Shown here: one piece after another, positions 16,968-27,725 of the stretch | How the letters are laid out: each line of letters starts with the position of its first letter | How positions within the stretch are numbered: position 1 is the first letter of the stretch | Notes under the pieces: model-generated | What the model was told of the DNA's origin: nothing | Seen by the model: the letters and a program-made list of their open reading frames with translations, nothing else | The model's database searches: none | Made by a program: the position numbers and the translations under genes | Assembly (NCBI RefSeq): GCF_028735875.1 | Contig: NZ_CP117834.1 | Span: 3,894,001-3,958,000 of the forward strand | Reading direction: 5' to 3' | DNA length: 64,000 nucleotides | Source: Shouchella hunanensis | Lineage (GTDB): Bacteria > Bacillota > Bacilli > Bacillales > Bacillaceae_D

Positions 16968-17569
16968 GTACGATCTCTTTCAAGGGCTCTTTTTAGTACT
17001 GCGACAGCCCTCTCATTTGGTATAAAAAGCAAAAATCCTTCCATTCCTTCTTCTTCGTTTTTTACTTTCATGGACGTTTCCATTAGAAAAAACTGATCTA
17101 CTTCAACGAGTTGATAGGTCGCCTCTGCCAGAACCGCACTTCCGATATCGATGGTTAACTCCGTTACAAGTGGATAAAGCGTTAATGACGTTAGAGAACC
17201 AATCGCTGTCACATAAGAGCCTATGACAATATTGCCAATCTCTTGGAACGCCGAAGAAGCAAGCGGGTACGTGTGTACATCAAGATCACTTTCTACATTA
17301 GGTAAGACCATTTTTACTAGGCGCACCGCTGTATCCATACTTGTTAAGAAAAACATTGTCCCTTCCACATCACCAGCGATTGGTGCATGTACCGTAGCAC
17401 ACACCTCTTGGTGGTAAGCACTCAACCGCGGTAAATCTTCCATTGCATGAAGGGCAATTTCCGGCACATTCATCGCTACTTGGCGCTGTAAAAGAGTTGA
17501 TAAAGCCGTTGCCGCAAAGCCAGTGCTAATGTTAGCAACTTCCTTTAACAGATCTTTTTCCATTGTCAC
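16964..17569 (-). CDS. cheC: CheY-P phosphatase CheC
   Basis: Dephosphorylates CheY-P and is activated by CheD. The 201-residue protein has two copies of the CheC/FliY/CheX active-site pattern D/S-x3-E-x2-N. The first is in KDLLKEVANIS, with a proline 23 residues after the Asn. The second is in SAFQEIGNIV, with a proline 20 residues after the Asn. Both look complete. The probable start is GTG at 17569, which overlaps the stop of the preceding cheB-like gene (GTGA) and lies 7 nt after AAGGGGAG; an ATG two codons later is the alternative. Confidence 0.93.
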   Translation of the reverse strand: MTMEKDLLKEVANISTGFAATALSTLLQRQVAMNVPEIALHAMEDLPRLSAYHQEVCATVHAPIAGDVEGTMFFLTSMDTAVRLVKMVLPNVESDLDVHTYPLASSAFQEIGNIVIGSYVTAIGSLTSLTLYPLVTELTIDIGSAVLAEATYQLVEVDQFFLMETSMKVKNEEEGMEGFLLFIPNERAVAVLKRALERDRT

Positions 17570-18177
17570 AGTGAGGCTCCCCTTTCGTGTAACCATTTTC
17601 CAATATCAATATGAGTCAATTCCCAGTCTACTTGCCCGGTCCTGACTGCTGCATGAGGCATACCCGAAATAATGGCACTTTCTTCTGCTTCTGCTAAAAT
17701 GGTGCAGCCACCTGATTGTTTTACTGGTTGTAAGGAAGCCGAACCATCTCTACCCATGCCGGTTAAAATAATCAAGATTTTTTTGTTGAAAAATGTAGTC
17801 GAAGCAAACAATGTATTAATTGATGGATGATACAAATCATTCTGATTCGGTTCTGTTATCTGGAAAAAAGCACGATTTCCTCTCTGAATAAGCGTAGTTT
17901 GCCATCCTCCAGGCGCTATATAAACAACACCAGTTTGTACAGGTTCATCATGTTGCGCTTCCTTTATTTGAAATGAAAACTGTTCATTTAAACGCTTAGC
18001 TAGTAAAGCGGTAAAATGCCCTGGCATATGTTGGGCAATAACAATCGGATACGGCAATTGATTTGGCAGCTGTTCAAACAGCTTTTGCAAAGCATTTGGG
18101 CCACCAGTTGAGCTGCCGATGGCAACAATCACAGAGGGGCCATTCCGATGATCCACTTGATCTCGTTCAATCATCAT
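17566..18177 (-). CDS. cheB: Receiver-less CheB: chemoreceptor methylesterase domain only
   Basis: Matches the C-terminal methylesterase/deamidase half of CheB, which removes methyl groups from chemoreceptor glutamates. The catalytic triad is visible: Ser23 in GSSTGGP, His50 in AQHMPGH and Asp144 in LTGMGRDGS. At about 203 residues it is far shorter than typical CheB (about 350). Only about 15 residues (MMIERDQVDHRNGPS) precede the catalytic domain, so the phosphoacceptor receiver domain is gone. No receiver remnant lies upstream, where the gene abuts the FlhG-like ORF through an ATGA overlap (start 18177; ATG at 18174 is an alternative). In studied CheB proteins the receiver inhibits the enzyme until phosphorylated by CheA, so this form may be constitutive. 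The family call is firm; the functional consequence is inferred. Confidence 0.9.
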   Translation of the reverse strand: MMIERDQVDHRNGPSVIVAIGSSTGGPNALQKLFEQLPNQLPYPIVIAQHMPGHFTALLAKRLNEQFSFQIKEAQHDEPVQTGVVYIAPGGWQTTLIQRGNRAFFQITEPNQNDLYHPSINTLFASTTFFNKKILIILTGMGRDGSASLQPVKQSGGCTILAEAEESAIISGMPHAAVRTGQVDWELTHIDIGKWLHERGASL

Positions 18178-18758
18178 TTTGCCATTAACCAATCTTTTAT
18201 TAATAACCCAATTGCCTCATAGACCGCATCCGTAAAACCGGCGCTTGCTTGATTTACTAATCCGAGATCCACTACATCAATCTCCAGAAAACGACTTGCC
18301 GTTTTGCGTAAATTTAATCGCGCTTGTTGATTTCGTTCGTTCGAATCCACTTCAGCTCCGATGATATAGGCGCGGGGAGGTGTATGATTTTTCAATAATT
18401 GATAAGCATCGAGGAGACGCTCTTCATTTGCTGATAAAAACAAAATAGCCGGAATATCGGCTGAACGAAGCACCTCTTCTCCTTCTACCTGGATGAAAAG
18501 ACATACGTCAATTCGCAAAGACGAAGATTGTTGTAGAACATCTGGATGCAATAGCTGATCTTGAAATTTCGGTCTGAACCGTGCCTTCGCCTCTGGTGTG
18601 GCGACGCAAAACGATTCATACCCATAATCACTCAATGATTGAATCAATTGCTCAATAATAAACGCTTCTTCTTTATGCTGTATATAAAGATGTAAGGACT
18701 TTCTTTTTTTTAGTGCATGCTCAACTGATCGTTGTCGTAGATCATACGCTTGATCCAT
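18174..18758 (-). CDS. Degenerate FlhG: MinD-like fold without Walker A, with FlhF-activator helix
   Basis: This 194-residue ORF occupies the flhG (ylxH) slot between flhF and cheB. It begins MDQAYDLRQR, matching the DQAxxLR helix with which FlhG stimulates the FlhF GTPase. The rest aligns by eye with FlhG. The first strand-loop-helix, where FlhG has the deviant Walker A (KGGVGKS-type), reads LYIQHKEEAFIIEQ and lacks the Gly-Lys-Ser/Thr residues. Later segments match: ERLLDAYQLLKNH with FlhG's SITDAYGMMKH-type helix, and RKTASRFLEIDVVDLGLV with its C-terminal part. About 100 residues are missing in the middle, including the switch regions. A good ribosome-binding site (GGAGGGGGA) precedes ATG 18758, which overlaps flhF by 17 nt. 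It reads as an intact, translated, ATPase-dead FlhG rather than a pseudogene. Confidence 0.78.
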   Translation of the reverse strand: MDQAYDLRQRSVEHALKKRKSLHLYIQHKEEAFIIEQLIQSLSDYGYESFCVATPEAKARFRPKFQDQLLHPDVLQQSSSLRIDVCLFIQVEGEEVLRSADIPAILFLSANEERLLDAYQLLKNHTPPRAYIIGAEVDSNERNQQARLNLRKTASRFLEIDVVDLGLVNQASAGFTDAVYEAIGLLIKDWLMAK

Positions 18759-19728
18759 TGTGTTCCCCCTCCAAGCGTAGCCATCCGATTAACTGCTCGG
18801 CAGTCGGATAACACAAATCATTTGGTACATGTTGTCCTGTTGTTACACAGGAAATTGGCTCTTTTCGTTTGTAAAGTAGTTCTGTTAGTAACGACATCGT
18901 TCGTGTTTCATCTTTTTTCGTTAAGATGAAACTATCGATTGTGACACTTGAAAACGGCTTTAACAGTTGCTCAAGATCGCTTGATTTCATCGTTAAACTT
19001 AACGCGACATGGCATTCTACGTCGCTCCTTGTTGTTAGAAATTGAACAAGTGGATCAGCGAGCTTTGACTGCAAGTAATTATCTCCTGGTGTATCAATAA
19101 AGATCCTATCAGCGGTTACGTTATTGCAAAGGGATGTTAATTCAGAAGCATCGTATGCAACATGGCACGGACAGTCTAAAATCTCGCTATACTTCTTTAG
19201 TTGCTCGACGGCCGCAATTCGGAACGTGTCTAACGTAATAAAAGCGATTGATTTTCCTTGATCATAACGAGCGTGAGCAGCGAGCTTCGCGACGGTCGTT
19301 GTCTTTCCTACACCAGTTGGTCCCAATACACAACATATTCGCTTTTCTCCGATTACCGCCGTTTGCGGTTTTAAAACAGCCTGTAGCATTTGGTTATAAA
19401 TTGTTTCTACTCCTATGACACCGCGATCTTCTATCATTTTTGCTGTGAGGGCTAATCCTTTTTTTACGGTTGGCGTAACTTCTAAACGATCAATATATGG
19501 TTTGACGCTCTGCACTTCTTTTACAATGGTACTTTCATGGAGGTGGGTTCGTTGCTTCTGTTCTTCAATGCCAATCGTTAGTTGACAAACTTCTTTTTTG
19601 AAAAAACCGAGCCAACCACCTTCCTTTACATAGCGAGAGTGCAAAATAACGGCTTTTGAACCAATGCTCTGGCGCATCAGCTCATAGGCTTGCTCGTACG
19701 TAGGTGCTTTGATTTTTTTTATGATCAC
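18742..19728 (-). CDS. flhF: Flagellar SRP-type GTPase FlhF
   Basis: FlhF is the third SRP-family GTPase and influences flagellar number and placement. The 328-residue protein has a short N-terminal basic B domain (MIIKKIKAPTYEQAYELMRQ), then the NG domains. G1 is [18 protein letters not shown]2 is LDTFRIAAVEQLKKYSEIL, G4 is TKKDET and G5 lies around CVTTGQ. The G3 motif is atypical: FIDTPGDNYL, whereas Ffh and FtsY in this window have DTAGR. It is somewhat shorter than B. subtilis FlhF (366 residues). It overlaps flhA by 4 nt and the FlhG-like gene by 17 nt. Confidence 0.94.
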   Translation of the reverse strand: MIIKKIKAPTYEQAYELMRQSIGSKAVILHSRYVKEGGWLGFFKKEVCQLTIGIEEQKQRTHLHESTIVKEVQSVKPYIDRLEVTPTVKKGLALTAKMIEDRGVIGVETIYNQMLQAVLKPQTAVIGEKRICCVLGPTGVGKTTTVAKLAAHARYDQGKSIAFITLDTFRIAAVEQLKKYSEILDCPCHVAYDASELTSLCNNVTADRIFIDTPGDNYLQSKLADPLVQFLTTRSDVECHVALSLTMKSSDLEQLLKPFSSVTIDSFILTKKDETRTMSLLTELLYKRKEPISCVTTGQHVPNDLCYPTAEQLIGWLRLEGEHNGSSV

Positions 19729-21764
19729 TGCAATCTCACCACCCCTACGCTTTGTACTTCAACATTAGCATCTAGTTCGTTGTATGAAATGACGGGTACT
19801 TGAGGAAGATAACGTTCAATTAAATGTCGCATATACATTCGAACAGCTGGTGAGCATAAAATGACTGCCTGTTGTCCCATTTCTGCTAGTTTCGTTGTTT
19901 CTGATGCGGTTTGCTGCAGAATCGTTTGCGAGTCAGCCGGTGCTAACGCTAAAAAATGCCCGTTTTCATTTTGTCCAACTGCATCAGCAATACGCTTCTC
20001 AACTTCACTAGCCAGTGTAATAACGGCTAGTTTATTCTGCTCGTCTGTTAACTGCTCCGAAATCTGCCGAGAAAGCGCTTGACGAACATACTCGGTCACC
20101 ACGTCCATATCTTTTGTTCGTGAACCGTAATCCGCAAGGGTCTCGAAAATCATTGGTAAATTACGAATGGATAATTGTTCTCTTAAAAGATTCTTCAATA
20201 CTTTCTGTACATCTCCAATAGATAAAGGTGTTGGGGTTACCTCTTCAACTAGGGTTGGGTACGTTTCTTTCACATGGTCTATCAAGGCTTTGGTTTCTTC
20301 TCTTCCTAGAAGTTCGTGCGCATAGGTTTTTAACAACTCGGTTAAATGAGTCGAGATAACCGTTGGCGGATCAACAACCGTATAGCCTGACAGTTCCGCT
20401 TCTTCTTTTACATCTTCTGTTACCCACATGGCTTCTAAACCAAAAGCAGGCTCGACCGTTGGAATGCCTGTAATACGCTCGTCATCAATACCTGTACTCA
20501 TCGCCATATAATGATCAAGAAGGACCTCTCCCTTTGCCACCACATCACCTTTAATTTTTATTGTATACGCGTTAGGCTCCAACGATAGGTTGTCTCGAAT
20601 GCGAATAACGGGAATCATTGTTCCAAGTTCAAGTGCCATTTGTTTACGAATCATAACGACTCGATCAAGCAAATCGCCTCCTTGAGTCGCATCCGCAAGT
20701 GGAATTAAGCCATAGCCAAATTCGAATTCGATTGGATCCATTTTCATTAACGACAAAACAGATTCAGGTCCTGTTGGCTCTGGTACATCTGCTGTTTCTT
20801 CTTGTAGCTGATGTTCCATTTCCTCTTCAACTGCTCGAGTTTTTGATAAACGGTAACCAGCAAATGCAAGCAGTCCAGCAACAGAAAACGTCACGACTTT
20901 TGTAATAGGCGTTGTAACTCCTAAAAGGAAAATCGTCGAAGCGGTAACGTACAATAGTTTTGGGTAAGCAAAAAGTTGCTTTGTTAAGTCATTTCCTAAG
21001 CTCCCCTCAGAAGCAGCTTTTGTGACAATAACACCTGTTGCAGTAGAAATGAGTAATGCCGGGATTTGTGTAACAAGACCGTCTCCAACAGTAAGTAATG
21101 TATACGTGCTCGCAGCAGTAGATAGATCCATTCCCATTTGCATCATGCCAATAACAAGACCAAAAACCATATTAATAATGACGATTATAATGCTAGCAAT
21201 AGCATCGCCCTTTACAAATTTACTCGCTCCGTCCATTGAGCCATAAAAATCTGCTTCATTTTCAATTTTTTCACGGCGGGCTTTTGCTTCACGATCGGAA
21301 ATTAACCCGGCATTCAAATCGGCATCAATACTCATTTGCTTTCCTGGCATTGCATCAAGGGTAAATCGGGCACCGACTTCTGACACTCGTTCAGCCCCTT
21401 TTGTAATAACAAGGAACTGAATAATAATGAGAATCAAGAACACAACAAACCCTACAACCGCATTCCCACCAATAACGAAGCTTCCAAACGTATCAATCAC
21501 GTTTCCAGCATGTGCTTCCCCTAAAATGGAACGGGTTGTTGAAACACTTAACCCTAAACGAAACAATGTCACAAGAAGAAGCATTGTTGGAAACACAGAA
21601 AATTGAAGCGCATTTTTTGTATTCAGTGCCACAAGTAAAATGAGTAGCGATAAAGAGATATTAAAAATAATTAACACGTCTAACAAAAATGGAGGGAGTG
21701 GTATGATGAGCATCACAATGATAAGAATCACACCAGCAAGTACACTTAAATCTTTCGCTTTCAT
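19725..21764 (-). CDS. flhA: Flagellar export gate protein FlhA
   Basis: Inner-membrane component of the flagellar type III export gate, with a large cytoplasmic domain that docks late substrates and chaperones. The 679-residue protein has about eight N-terminal membrane segments. The FHIPEP-family signature follows around RFTLDAMPGKQMSIDADLNA, with the conserved loop SDREAKARREKIENEADFYG. The C-terminal half is soluble. It lies between flhB (18-nt gap) and flhF (4-nt overlap). Confidence 0.98.
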   Translation of the reverse strand: MKAKDLSVLAGVILIIVMLIIPLPPFLLDVLIIFNISLSLLILLVALNTKNALQFSVFPTMLLLVTLFRLGLSVSTTRSILGEAHAGNVIDTFGSFVIGGNAVVGFVVFLILIIIQFLVITKGAERVSEVGARFTLDAMPGKQMSIDADLNAGLISDREAKARREKIENEADFYGSMDGASKFVKGDAIASIIIVIINMVFGLVIGMMQMGMDLSTAASTYTLLTVGDGLVTQIPALLISTATGVIVTKAASEGSLGNDLTKQLFAYPKLLYVTASTIFLLGVTTPITKVVTFSVAGLLAFAGYRLSKTRAVEEEMEHQLQEETADVPEPTGPESVLSLMKMDPIEFEFGYGLIPLADATQGGDLLDRVVMIRKQMALELGTMIPVIRIRDNLSLEPNAYTIKIKGDVVAKGEVLLDHYMAMSTGIDDERITGIPTVEPAFGLEAMWVTEDVKEEAELSGYTVVDPPTVISTHLTELLKTYAHELLGREETKALIDHVKETYPTLVEEVTPTPLSIGDVQKVLKNLLREQLSIRNLPMIFETLADYGSRTKDMDVVTEYVRQALSRQISEQLTDEQNKLAVITLASEVEKRIADAVGQNENGHFLALAPADSQTILQQTASETTKLAEMGQQAVILCSPAVRMYMRHLIERYLPQVPVISYNELDANVEVQSVGVVRLQ

Positions 21765-25597: not shown

Positions 25598-26743
25598 CTA
25601 ATTCAAGTGATTAATTCGTTCTTTTTTACTAACGATATCTGTTATTCTAACGCCGAAATTCTCATCAATTACGACTACTTCTCCCTTAGCAATAAGTCGA
25701 TCGTTTACGCGAACATCGACAGGTTCACCAGCTAATTTATCCAGCTCAATAATAGATCCTTGTGAAATCGTTAAAATTTCTTGTATCGTTTTTTTCGTTC
25801 TACCTAGTTCCACCTTTACTTCTAAAGGTATTTCTAAGAGCATATCTAAATTTTTCATCTCGCTATCTGGTAAGTTTGGTTTTTCAAAATTAGAAAAGAC
25901 CGCTTTTTCTACAAGATGCTCTTTCGCCATAGTTGGAGTTGGTTGTTTAACGCGATTCGGTTCCTCTTCTTGTTTAAAGAATGTAGGTTCTTCAACCGGT
26001 TCCTCTTTTTCTACATGCGTTGCTTCAACTTCATTTGTTTCTCCGAGCAAGGCTTGCGCATAACTTTTTCCAAATGGCACGTTAATAATCTGTAATAATT
26101 GTGAGTCAATTAAATCACCTAACTTCAACGAAAATGAAATACCGATAAGATGATCGCCTTCTGGCACATACTCCGGTTTTTTTTGTGAATTAAAGTCGAC
26201 AATTTGCACCCGAGGAGGGGAAATATCGACTCTCCTATTAAATAATGTTGACATTGATGTTGAAGCAGACCCCATCATTTGATTCATCGCTTCTTGGACA
26301 GCACTTAAGTGCATATCTGTTAACGTTTCATCTGGTTGCTCGCCAGTACCACCTAACATTAAGTCTGCTATAATGGCAGCATCTTTGGTCGTAATAACGA
26401 ATAAATTAGAGCCTTCAAAGCCCTCTGTATAATCAACATGAACAACGACATGAGGATGAGGGAACAAATCATGTAATGTGGATTGATCAATTGACTTAAC
26501 AGTAGGCGTTGTTATTTCCACTTTTTGATTTAACAAAGTGGATAGTGCTGTCGCTGAGCTCCCAAAAGAAATATTTCCTATTTCACCAATGGTGTCTTGC
26601 TCCATCGGTGTGAGAATATCAGTAATTTCCACTGTTTCAAGCTCATGCTCTTCGTCATTTTTCTCGGGGGCAGATGAGTCATCTTCTTTTAACCCTTGTA
26701 ATAATGCGTTAATTTCGTCTTGAGAAAGAGGTCTATCATTCAT
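25598..26743 (-). CDS. fliY: Flagellar switch protein and CheY-P phosphatase FliY
   Basis: Switch-complex protein of Gram-positive flagella, a fusion of a CheC-like phosphatase with a FliN domain. The 381-residue protein starts with a CheY-P-binding peptide (PLSQDEINALLQGL). It carries two phosphatase sites of the D/S-x3-E-x2-N pattern with proline 23 residues later: DTIGEIGN ... P and SAVQEAMN ... P. The C-terminal FliN-like domain follows, with VELGRTKKTIQEILTISQGS. It overlaps the fliM stop by 8 nt. Confidence 0.97.
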   Translation of the reverse strand: MNDRPLSQDEINALLQGLKEDDSSAPEKNDEEHELETVEITDILTPMEQDTIGEIGNISFGSSATALSTLLNQKVEITTPTVKSIDQSTLHDLFPHPHVVVHVDYTEGFEGSNLFVITTKDAAIIADLMLGGTGEQPDETLTDMHLSAVQEAMNQMMGSASTSMSTLFNRRVDISPPRVQIVDFNSQKKPEYVPEGDHLIGISFSLKLGDLIDSQLLQIINVPFGKSYAQALLGETNEVEATHVEKEEPVEEPTFFKQEEEPNRVKQPTPTMAKEHLVEKAVFSNFEKPNLPDSEMKNLDMLLEIPLEVKVELGRTKKTIQEILTISQGSIIELDKLAGEPVDVRVNDRLIAKGEVVVIDENFGVRITDIVSKKERINHLN

Positions 26744-27725
26744 CTTCCGTTCCTCCTACAATATCTGTCACCTGAATAGCCATCCTGTCTCGTTGTAAGC
26801 CTGGTTGGCCCTTAAATTTTAATGCGCCACCGACATTCATATGTAAAGGTGATGATAGTTCTTGGTCTAGCGTTATAACATCATCGATGCTTAGTTTTAA
26901 AAACTCTTCAATTGTAATAGTAGACCTTCCTAATTCTACAGCGACATCAATTGTGGTTTTTTTCAGCTGTCGGTTCATCATTTCTTCTTCTTCAGGCGAA
27001 ATGGAACGTCTTTGCTCTTGGAACCAATGATGATTAGTCAACTTAGGTAATACGTCTTCTAAGACAACATGTGGTAAACAGATTGTCATTAACCCAGACG
27101 TCTCTGCAATACTCGTCGCTAGTGAAATGACAACAACCGTTTCATTCGGCGAAACCATCTGCAAAAAGTGTGGGTTAACTTCTGTTACTTCTGAAACCGG
27201 TTCAAGTTGAACGACAGATGACCACGCTTCTGCAAAACTTCGAACCATTGAATCAAACAGTCCGGAAAGGATGTTCTTCTCAATATCCGTTAAATTATCA
27301 ATTTTGTTAATGCTTGTTCCTCTACCACCAAGCACACGATCAAACATCGCATAAGCAACATTGGGGTTTGTTTCAAGCAAAAATCGACCACTCAACGGTC
27401 TTGGTTCAACTACATTTAAAAACGTCATCGACGGTATGGAACGAACATATTCTTCGTATGGCACTTGCTCCACTGACGCAACTTGAATCTGAACAAGTGA
27501 ACGGAGCCTTGCAGAAAAATAAGTTGTTAAAATGCGTGCGTAGTTTTCATGAATGCGTGACAAGTTTCTCATCTGGTCTTTAGAAAAACGAAGGGCGCGT
27601 TTAAAATCGTACGTTCGCACCTTTTTTTCCGCTTCAACCTTTAATAAGTCCTCTGCACTCTTTTCACCGGTTGTTAATGCTGAAAGAAGTTCGTCAATCT
27701 CCCCTTGTGACAATACATCTGCCAT
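26736..27725 (-). CDS. fliM: Flagellar motor switch protein FliM
   Basis: C-ring protein that receives CheY-P and controls rotation. The 329-residue protein has the N-terminal CheY-binding motif LSQGEIDELLSAL. The CheC-like middle domain follows (for example GLFDSMVRSFAEAW), and the C-terminal FliN-like domain has VELGRSTITIEEFLKLSIDD. It is encoded between fliL and fliY, as expected. Confidence 0.98.
   Translation of the reverse strand: MADVLSQGEIDELLSALTTGEKSAEDLLKVEAEKKVRTYDFKRALRFSKDQMRNLSRIHENYARILTTYFSARLRSLVQIQVASVEQVPYEEYVRSIPSMTFLNVVEPRPLSGRFLLETNPNVAYAMFDRVLGGRGTSINKIDNLTDIEKNILSGLFDSMVRSFAEAWSSVVQLEPVSEVTEVNPHFLQMVSPNETVVVISLATSIAETSGLMTICLPHVVLEDVLPKLTNHHWFQEQRRSISPEEEEMMNRQLKKTTIDVAVELGRSTITIEEFLKLSIDDVITLDQELSSPLHMNVGGALKFKGQPGLQRDRMAIQVTDIVGGTEDE

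Follow-up and report, generated by a model that had tools for sequence, protein, structure and literature searches.

A short FlhG without a nucleotide-binding site in Shouchella, and further losses of the FlhG P-loop in Bacillales

INTRODUCTION

Does FlhG need its ATPase cycle? The question is raised by a 64,000-nucleotide stretch of the Shouchella hunanensis genome (contig NZ_CP117834.1, positions 3,894,001 to 3,958,000; hereafter the window), part of a complete 4.06-Mb genome, in which the gene between flhF and cheB encodes a 194-residue FlhG that carries the FlhF-activating motif and has no P-loop. In the model reviewed in PMC12826062, the glutamine of DQAxxLR serves the FlhF homodimer as a co-catalytic element, and FlhG forms ATP-dependent dimers that attach to the membrane through a C-terminal helix. 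Experiments in Bacillus subtilis found no discernible effect on hook distribution for FlhG D65A, which does not hydrolyze ATP, about 10% fewer puncta when the membrane helix was removed, and a resemblance to the flhG deletion for Q8A (PMC12327844). That paper asks outright what the primary function of FlhG is if ATPase activity and membrane contact are both non-critical. It also reports that Lys177, Arg207 (once printed as 277) and Phe215 of Geobacillus FlhG are needed to bind FliY, that this binding is nucleotide-independent, and that the link of FlhG to GpsB requires the ATP dimer.

A first-pass annotation of the window, made from the letters alone, had proposed an ATPase-dead, shortened FlhG that keeps the FlhF-activating helix. 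The loss of the nucleotide site, the motif and the selection on the gene all held up on analysis, and activation of FlhF stands as a prediction. To this we add that the form runs through this genus of soil bacteria, that conservation extends to a second element, the known FliY-binding helix, and that the P-loop appears to have been lost independently in three further lineages.

RESULTS

Descent and architecture of the short protein

As the first-pass annotation described it, the gene is an open reading frame of 194 residues with DQAYDLR at residues 2-8 and a ribosome-binding site upstream (Table 1). Sequence searches of Pfam, NCBIfam and PDB with the protein returned nothing meaningful, including no Pfam ParA, CbiA or AAA match. 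Profile-profile comparison by hhalign of 11 short proteins with seven canonical FlhGs gave a probability of 94% (E 1.4e-7) over columns 75-170, which rules out a non-FlhG origin for the body of the protein and supports its descent from FlhG; hhalign alone gives no support for the first 74 columns. Profile A1 also picked up flhG genes of a sister genus, down to an E-value of 8.2e-9.

In the alignment with canonical FlhG, SGKGGVGKS is replaced by QHKEE with gaps, so the deviant Walker A motif (KGGxGK followed by S or T) that defines MinD/ParA-type ATPases is not present, and the earlier reading of a protein without Gly-Lys-Ser was correct. Also missing are switch I, the Asp of switch II, the SKAV segment and the basic amphipathic helix at the C-terminus. 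The same annotation had taken the central part with the switch regions to be gone while later segments still aligned. The switch loss and the later alignment were both found, but the loss of the central part was overstated: hhalign columns 75-170 match canonical columns 122-225. MAFFT placed the elements in the order b1 (SLHLYI), emptied P-loop (QHKEE), a1, b2, b3 (IDVCLFI), b4 (IPAILFL), YxxxK helix, b5, a helix with N and F, b6 and final core helix; the core strand and helix order seems to have been retained, not excised.

AlphaFold models from four-row alignments were of low confidence, both for the window protein (mean predicted local distance difference test, pLDDT, 46.4; predicted template modeling score, pTM, 0.35) and for a 166-residue part of the JCM 19041 relative's protein (pLDDT 58.1, pTM 0.56); the order of elements in both would fit the MinD core. 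Fold searches with the latter low-confidence model gave weak SIMIBI-type similarity; FlhG and MinD do not figure among the 50 matches listed by VIA-align, a listing that speaks neither for nor against a MinD fold.

Near the C-terminus, 15 of 16 canonical rows have a positive charge on their best amphipathic 11-mer; the charge is zero or negative in nine of the 10 Shouchella proteins whose end could be read. The most divergent member (locus L011) ends in FFKSIRTFTEKVQSL, which has a charge of +2 and resembles a retained membrane helix. The P-loop thus seems to have been lost before the membrane helix.

Distribution in Shouchella and its family

The window protein is 99% identical to a Shouchella miscanthi protein and 91% identical to one from S. 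oshimensis. Among 60 related genomes, the short form was present in 10 of the 11 others of the same genus, and across the family scan in 12 of 13 Shouchella genomes (the window's own and one of the same species included), so that the relatives do share the form. The exception, a 2.6-Mb genome (G007), has no matches to FlhG, FlhF, FlhA or CheA and has probably lost flagella and chemotaxis; the FlhA search covered three genomes. Of 41 family genomes, 40 have CheA at another place, which rules out its loss as part of a Shouchella-wide decay of chemotaxis. The frame is open in 11 of the 12 genus genomes carrying the gene and shifted near the C-terminus in one draft (G006; L010/L038), and lengths are 191-194 residues in the 10 members whose end is not shifted.

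A profile of the seven canonical FlhGs (A2) matched a canonical FlhG in all 28 genomes from the remaining six genera of the family (E <= 1.5e-67); 27 of these combine DQAxxLR and the deviant Walker A motif in one frame, and the remaining one (G062) is split over several frames. In the 13 Shouchella genomes the best A2 match, at about 1e-30, was MinD-like and started from column 17-19, without the DQA helix; the one in the window genome reads as MinD itself. The window genome has PF01656 in five places, read as Soj/ParA, MinD (L032), Mrp, a tyrosine kinase and Ffh. No intact FlhG was found elsewhere in that genome, either among these five places or among the A2 matches, and the short protein is the sole FlhG of Shouchella.

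Selection and conserved residues

Fourteen residues are invariant in 11 members (M1, D2, Q3, A4, L7, R8, L42, T54, F61, Y119, K123, G134, N149 and G166), comprising six of the first eight columns versus eight of the 186 others (Fisher p 1.1e-6, a guide only, as the rows are related). DQAxxLR is the best-conserved stretch of the protein. We rejected the idea that conservation of MDQA is a by-product of the overlap with flhF, because the genes at L006-L009 overlap flhF by about one base yet retain the motif.

The ratio of nonsynonymous to synonymous substitution rates (dN/dS, NG86 method) was 0.084-0.187 in nine flhG pairs (dS being saturated in the L001-L003 pair), compared with 0.093-0.158 for flhF and 0.118-0.187 for cheB (four pairs each). 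The short flhG is under purifying selection comparable to that on flhF, with no sign of neutral drift, in keeping with the selection proposed at first pass.

Beyond the N-terminus, positions of the FliY-binding surface are kept. By residue count on 4rz2 (offset 8), K123 corresponds to Lys177 of Geobacillus FlhG (GtFlhG) and is present in 11 of 11 members, and F157 corresponds to Phe215 and is present in 10, with Tyr in the other. N149, at the position of Arg207, is Asn in all 11 members and in seven of 16 canonical rows.

Probable parallel P-loop losses in Bacillales

We surveyed 397 genomes of the order, from 135 genera. Profile A1 detected the short form in the window's genus only (three of the four such genomes drawn), and nine other genomes matching A1 have open frames of 288-303 residues. 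FlhF was found in 371 genomes (E <= 1e-32) and canonical FlhG in 362 (E <= 1e-45); at these thresholds one genome (G168) has FlhG without FlhF, and 10 have FlhF without canonical FlhG, namely three of Shouchella and seven others. Inspection of the region 3' of flhF in those seven and in G115 revealed P-loop-less FlhGs of 144 residues in G267 and G074 (the g41 form, family f35), of 277 residues in G259 and G281 (family f14; P-loop site SGHSRNSSQS or SGHSRNSAQS) and of 239 residues in G255 (family f6; P-loop site LNAESTEKR). G115 has an intact P-loop and a frame broken further on. No FlhG adjoins flhF in G104 and G165 (family f22), where the divergent flagellar locus (L098/L099) has a 435-residue FlhF followed by a flagellar rod/hook-type gene, with no FlhG seen.

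Since f35, f14 and f6 each also include members with canonical FlhG (G277 even shares its genus with G255), at least four separate P-loop losses, Shouchella included, are the simplest reading of presence and absence by family. FlhG origin is supported over the full length of the 277-residue form (probability 97.7%) and by BLASTP for the 239-residue form (E 6e-16); both still end in a membrane-helix-like segment. For the 144-residue form, hhalign found a 13-residue helix only (E 1.9e-4), so its assignment rests on its place, this helix and YxxxK. Its dN/dS was 0.115 (0.076 for flhF), while the g105 pair gave 0.258 versus 0.120 for flhF and its flhG is therefore under weaker constraint.

For comparison we assembled 16 P-loop-less ("dead") FlhGs, 11 from Shouchella and five others, leaving out the near-identical G064 and L036-L038. 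Across these four lineages DQAxxLR (D, Q, A, L, R) and YxxxK (Y, K) are invariant in 16 of 16, and at the Phe position 11 have F, four have Y and one has H; the P-loop is present in none of them and in 16 of 16 canonical rows. Of the 58 FlhG loci that we read (28 family loci and 30 more, mostly the lowest-scoring in the order), 57 have DQAxxLR and 55 the deviant Walker A motif, and one is broken (G062). Two full-length FlhGs depart from the motif, with GVEGEGKS, an ordinary Walker A that lacks the signature Lys, at L133 (G206) and GKSGLGTSN, in which the P-loop Lys is lost, at L119 (G111); these are possibly early stages of the same P-loop loss. Six genomes (G131, G301, G361, G234, G196 and G277) have open frames of about 640-680 residues at flhG, where flhG and its neighbor perhaps share one frame.

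DISCUSSION

Function of the short FlhG

We regard it as likely that the short FlhG is a nucleotide-independent pseudo-ATPase that activates the FlhF GTPase while docked on the C-ring through FliY or FliM. The sequences show FlhG ancestry, the lost ATP site, two interaction elements kept under purifying selection, and recurrence in four lineages; activation of FlhF, binding to FliY and the C-ring, and the lack of an ATP cycle in vivo are what we infer. In the proposed mechanism, the N-terminal DQAxxLR helix would reach into the composite active site of the GTP-bound FlhF homodimer, where its glutamine would complete catalysis and FlhF would return to the monomer. The body would form a small Rossmann-like unit, with the YxxxK helix and the Phe gripping the N-terminus of FliY (or FliM), and the activator would be delivered with the C-ring, not by an ATP-driven, membrane-bound FlhG dimer. 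EIDALL-like motifs at the N-termini of FliM/FliY were present in all nine regions read. The dead FlhGs resemble naturally occurring counterparts of the B. subtilis D65A, membrane-helix and Q8A results. Their link to GpsB, which in Geobacillus needs the ATP dimer, is predicted to be absent or different.

A different view is that only the FlhF-activating helix is functional and the body is a neutral remnant serving translation coupling or stability. Members are indeed only about 30% identical outside DQAxxLR, and the g41 version has shrunk to 144 residues; we nonetheless consider this unlikely, given a whole-gene dN/dS of 0.08-0.19, the near-constant length in Shouchella, the invariance of Y119, K123, N149 and G166, and a YxxxK shared by all 16 dead FlhGs. 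The retained Lys and Phe positions, together with nucleotide-independent FliY binding in Geobacillus, could instead mean that the body is chiefly a C-ring assembly factor (a FliY/FliM chaperone) with FlhF activation secondary. That DQAxxLR is the most conserved element and that Q8A resembles the deletion in B. subtilis make such a role quite improbable as the main one. A decaying pseudogene heading for loss is very hard to credit: the frame shift in the draft genome and the higher ratio of the g105 pair point that way, against open frames in the other 11 genus genomes, low dN/dS, and retention of the gene wherever flhA was found.

That three other lineages appear to have lost the ATP site independently suggests that the energy cycle is dispensable for the main job of FlhG. 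We lean towards the view that Bacillales dropped the ATPase cycle on at least four occasions and kept the activating and C-ring docking helices each time, which would make FlhG in essence a C-ring-borne activator of the FlhF GTPase, with the MinD-like ATP/membrane cycle as a regulatory layer that can be removed. Four parallel losses weigh more than one odd genome. Lineages that have naturally shed both the ATPase site and the membrane contact and still keep DQAxxLR and the FliY-docking helix make the question of primary function directly testable; they separate GTPase activation from nucleotide cycling in nature and provide a pared-down FlhG for structural work with FlhF and FliY.

Comparison with known systems

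The short protein resembles FlhG/YlxH of B. subtilis and Geobacillus thermodenitrificans (4RZ2/4RZ3) in its operon place after flhF, the DQAxxLR helix, homologous profile columns, and the YxxxK and Phe of the FliY-binding surface; unlike them, it is about 100 residues shorter and has no P-loop, switch residues or recognizable membrane helix. With the deviant Walker A ATPases MinD and ParA it shares distant ancestry via FlhG and an apparently similar order of elements, but not their defining motif. PMC12826062 describes an analogous catalytic helper in a signal recognition particle (SRP)-GTPase active site, the SRP RNA for Ffh-FtsY; the short FlhG differs in being a protein, one whose activation of FlhF is predicted. 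In the open full-text literature we found no paper on a naturally ATPase-less FlhG and none naming both FlhG and clausii; subscription papers lie mostly outside such a search, and absence is unproven.

The flagellar locus

The operon on the minus strand runs fliM, fliY, ... flhB, flhA, flhF, short flhG, cheB (catalytic domain only), cheC, cheD, sigD. The short flhG adjoins flhF on its 3' side, and flhF is also adjacent at least at the listed loci of relatives. The overlaps with both neighbors reported at first pass are real, at 17 nucleotides with flhF (18742-18758) and 19 with cheB from its listed TTG start, or four if an ATG five codons in is used; they are not in phase, as the frames differ.

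Table 1. Features of the window discussed in the text
Feature	Position	Strand	Basis or remark
cheB, reduced to methylesterase domain	17566..18192	minus	PF01339 only
Short FlhG without nucleotide-binding site, 194 residues	18174..18758	minus	ORF (open reading frame) between flhF and cheB; ATG start, open from 18758 down to 18174
N149 and F157, codons 149-158	18285..18314	minus	positions of GtFlhG Arg207/Phe215 (FliY/GpsB binding)
Helix with Y119xxxK123, codons 112-125	18384..18425	minus	equivalent of FliY-binding Lys177 of GtFlhG
IQHKEEA, codons 26-32	18663..18683	minus	alignment; canonical FlhG reads SGKGGVGKS
DQAYDLR, FlhF-activating helix motif (DQAxxLR), codons 2-8	18735..18755	minus	
flhF, 328 residues, SRP-type GTPase	18742..19728	minus	G1 motif intact; G3 is DTPGDN
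Ribosome-binding site GGAGGGGG	18765..18772	minus	upstream of short flhG ATG
flhA	19725..21764	minus	ORF and motif; matches G001 at 83%, G002 at 79%
fliY, N-terminal LSQDEINALL motif	25598..26743	minus	presumed FlhG ligand
fliM, N-terminal LSQGEIDELL motif	26736..27725	minus	

The CheB receiver domain is being lost in Shouchella: Pfam detects it at L011 and not at L004 or L006, where the N-terminal part is still about 110 residues long; the window CheB consists of the methylesterase domain only. The window FlhF matched TIGR03499 at E 4.1e-50 with 171.4 bits (cut-off 174.15), and Shouchella FlhF is 325-340 residues long in the nine complete copies read. Its G3 motif varies, with DTPGDN in the window, DTAGDN at L003, DTEGRN at L011 and DTAGRN in all remaining copies read, from members and relatives alike.
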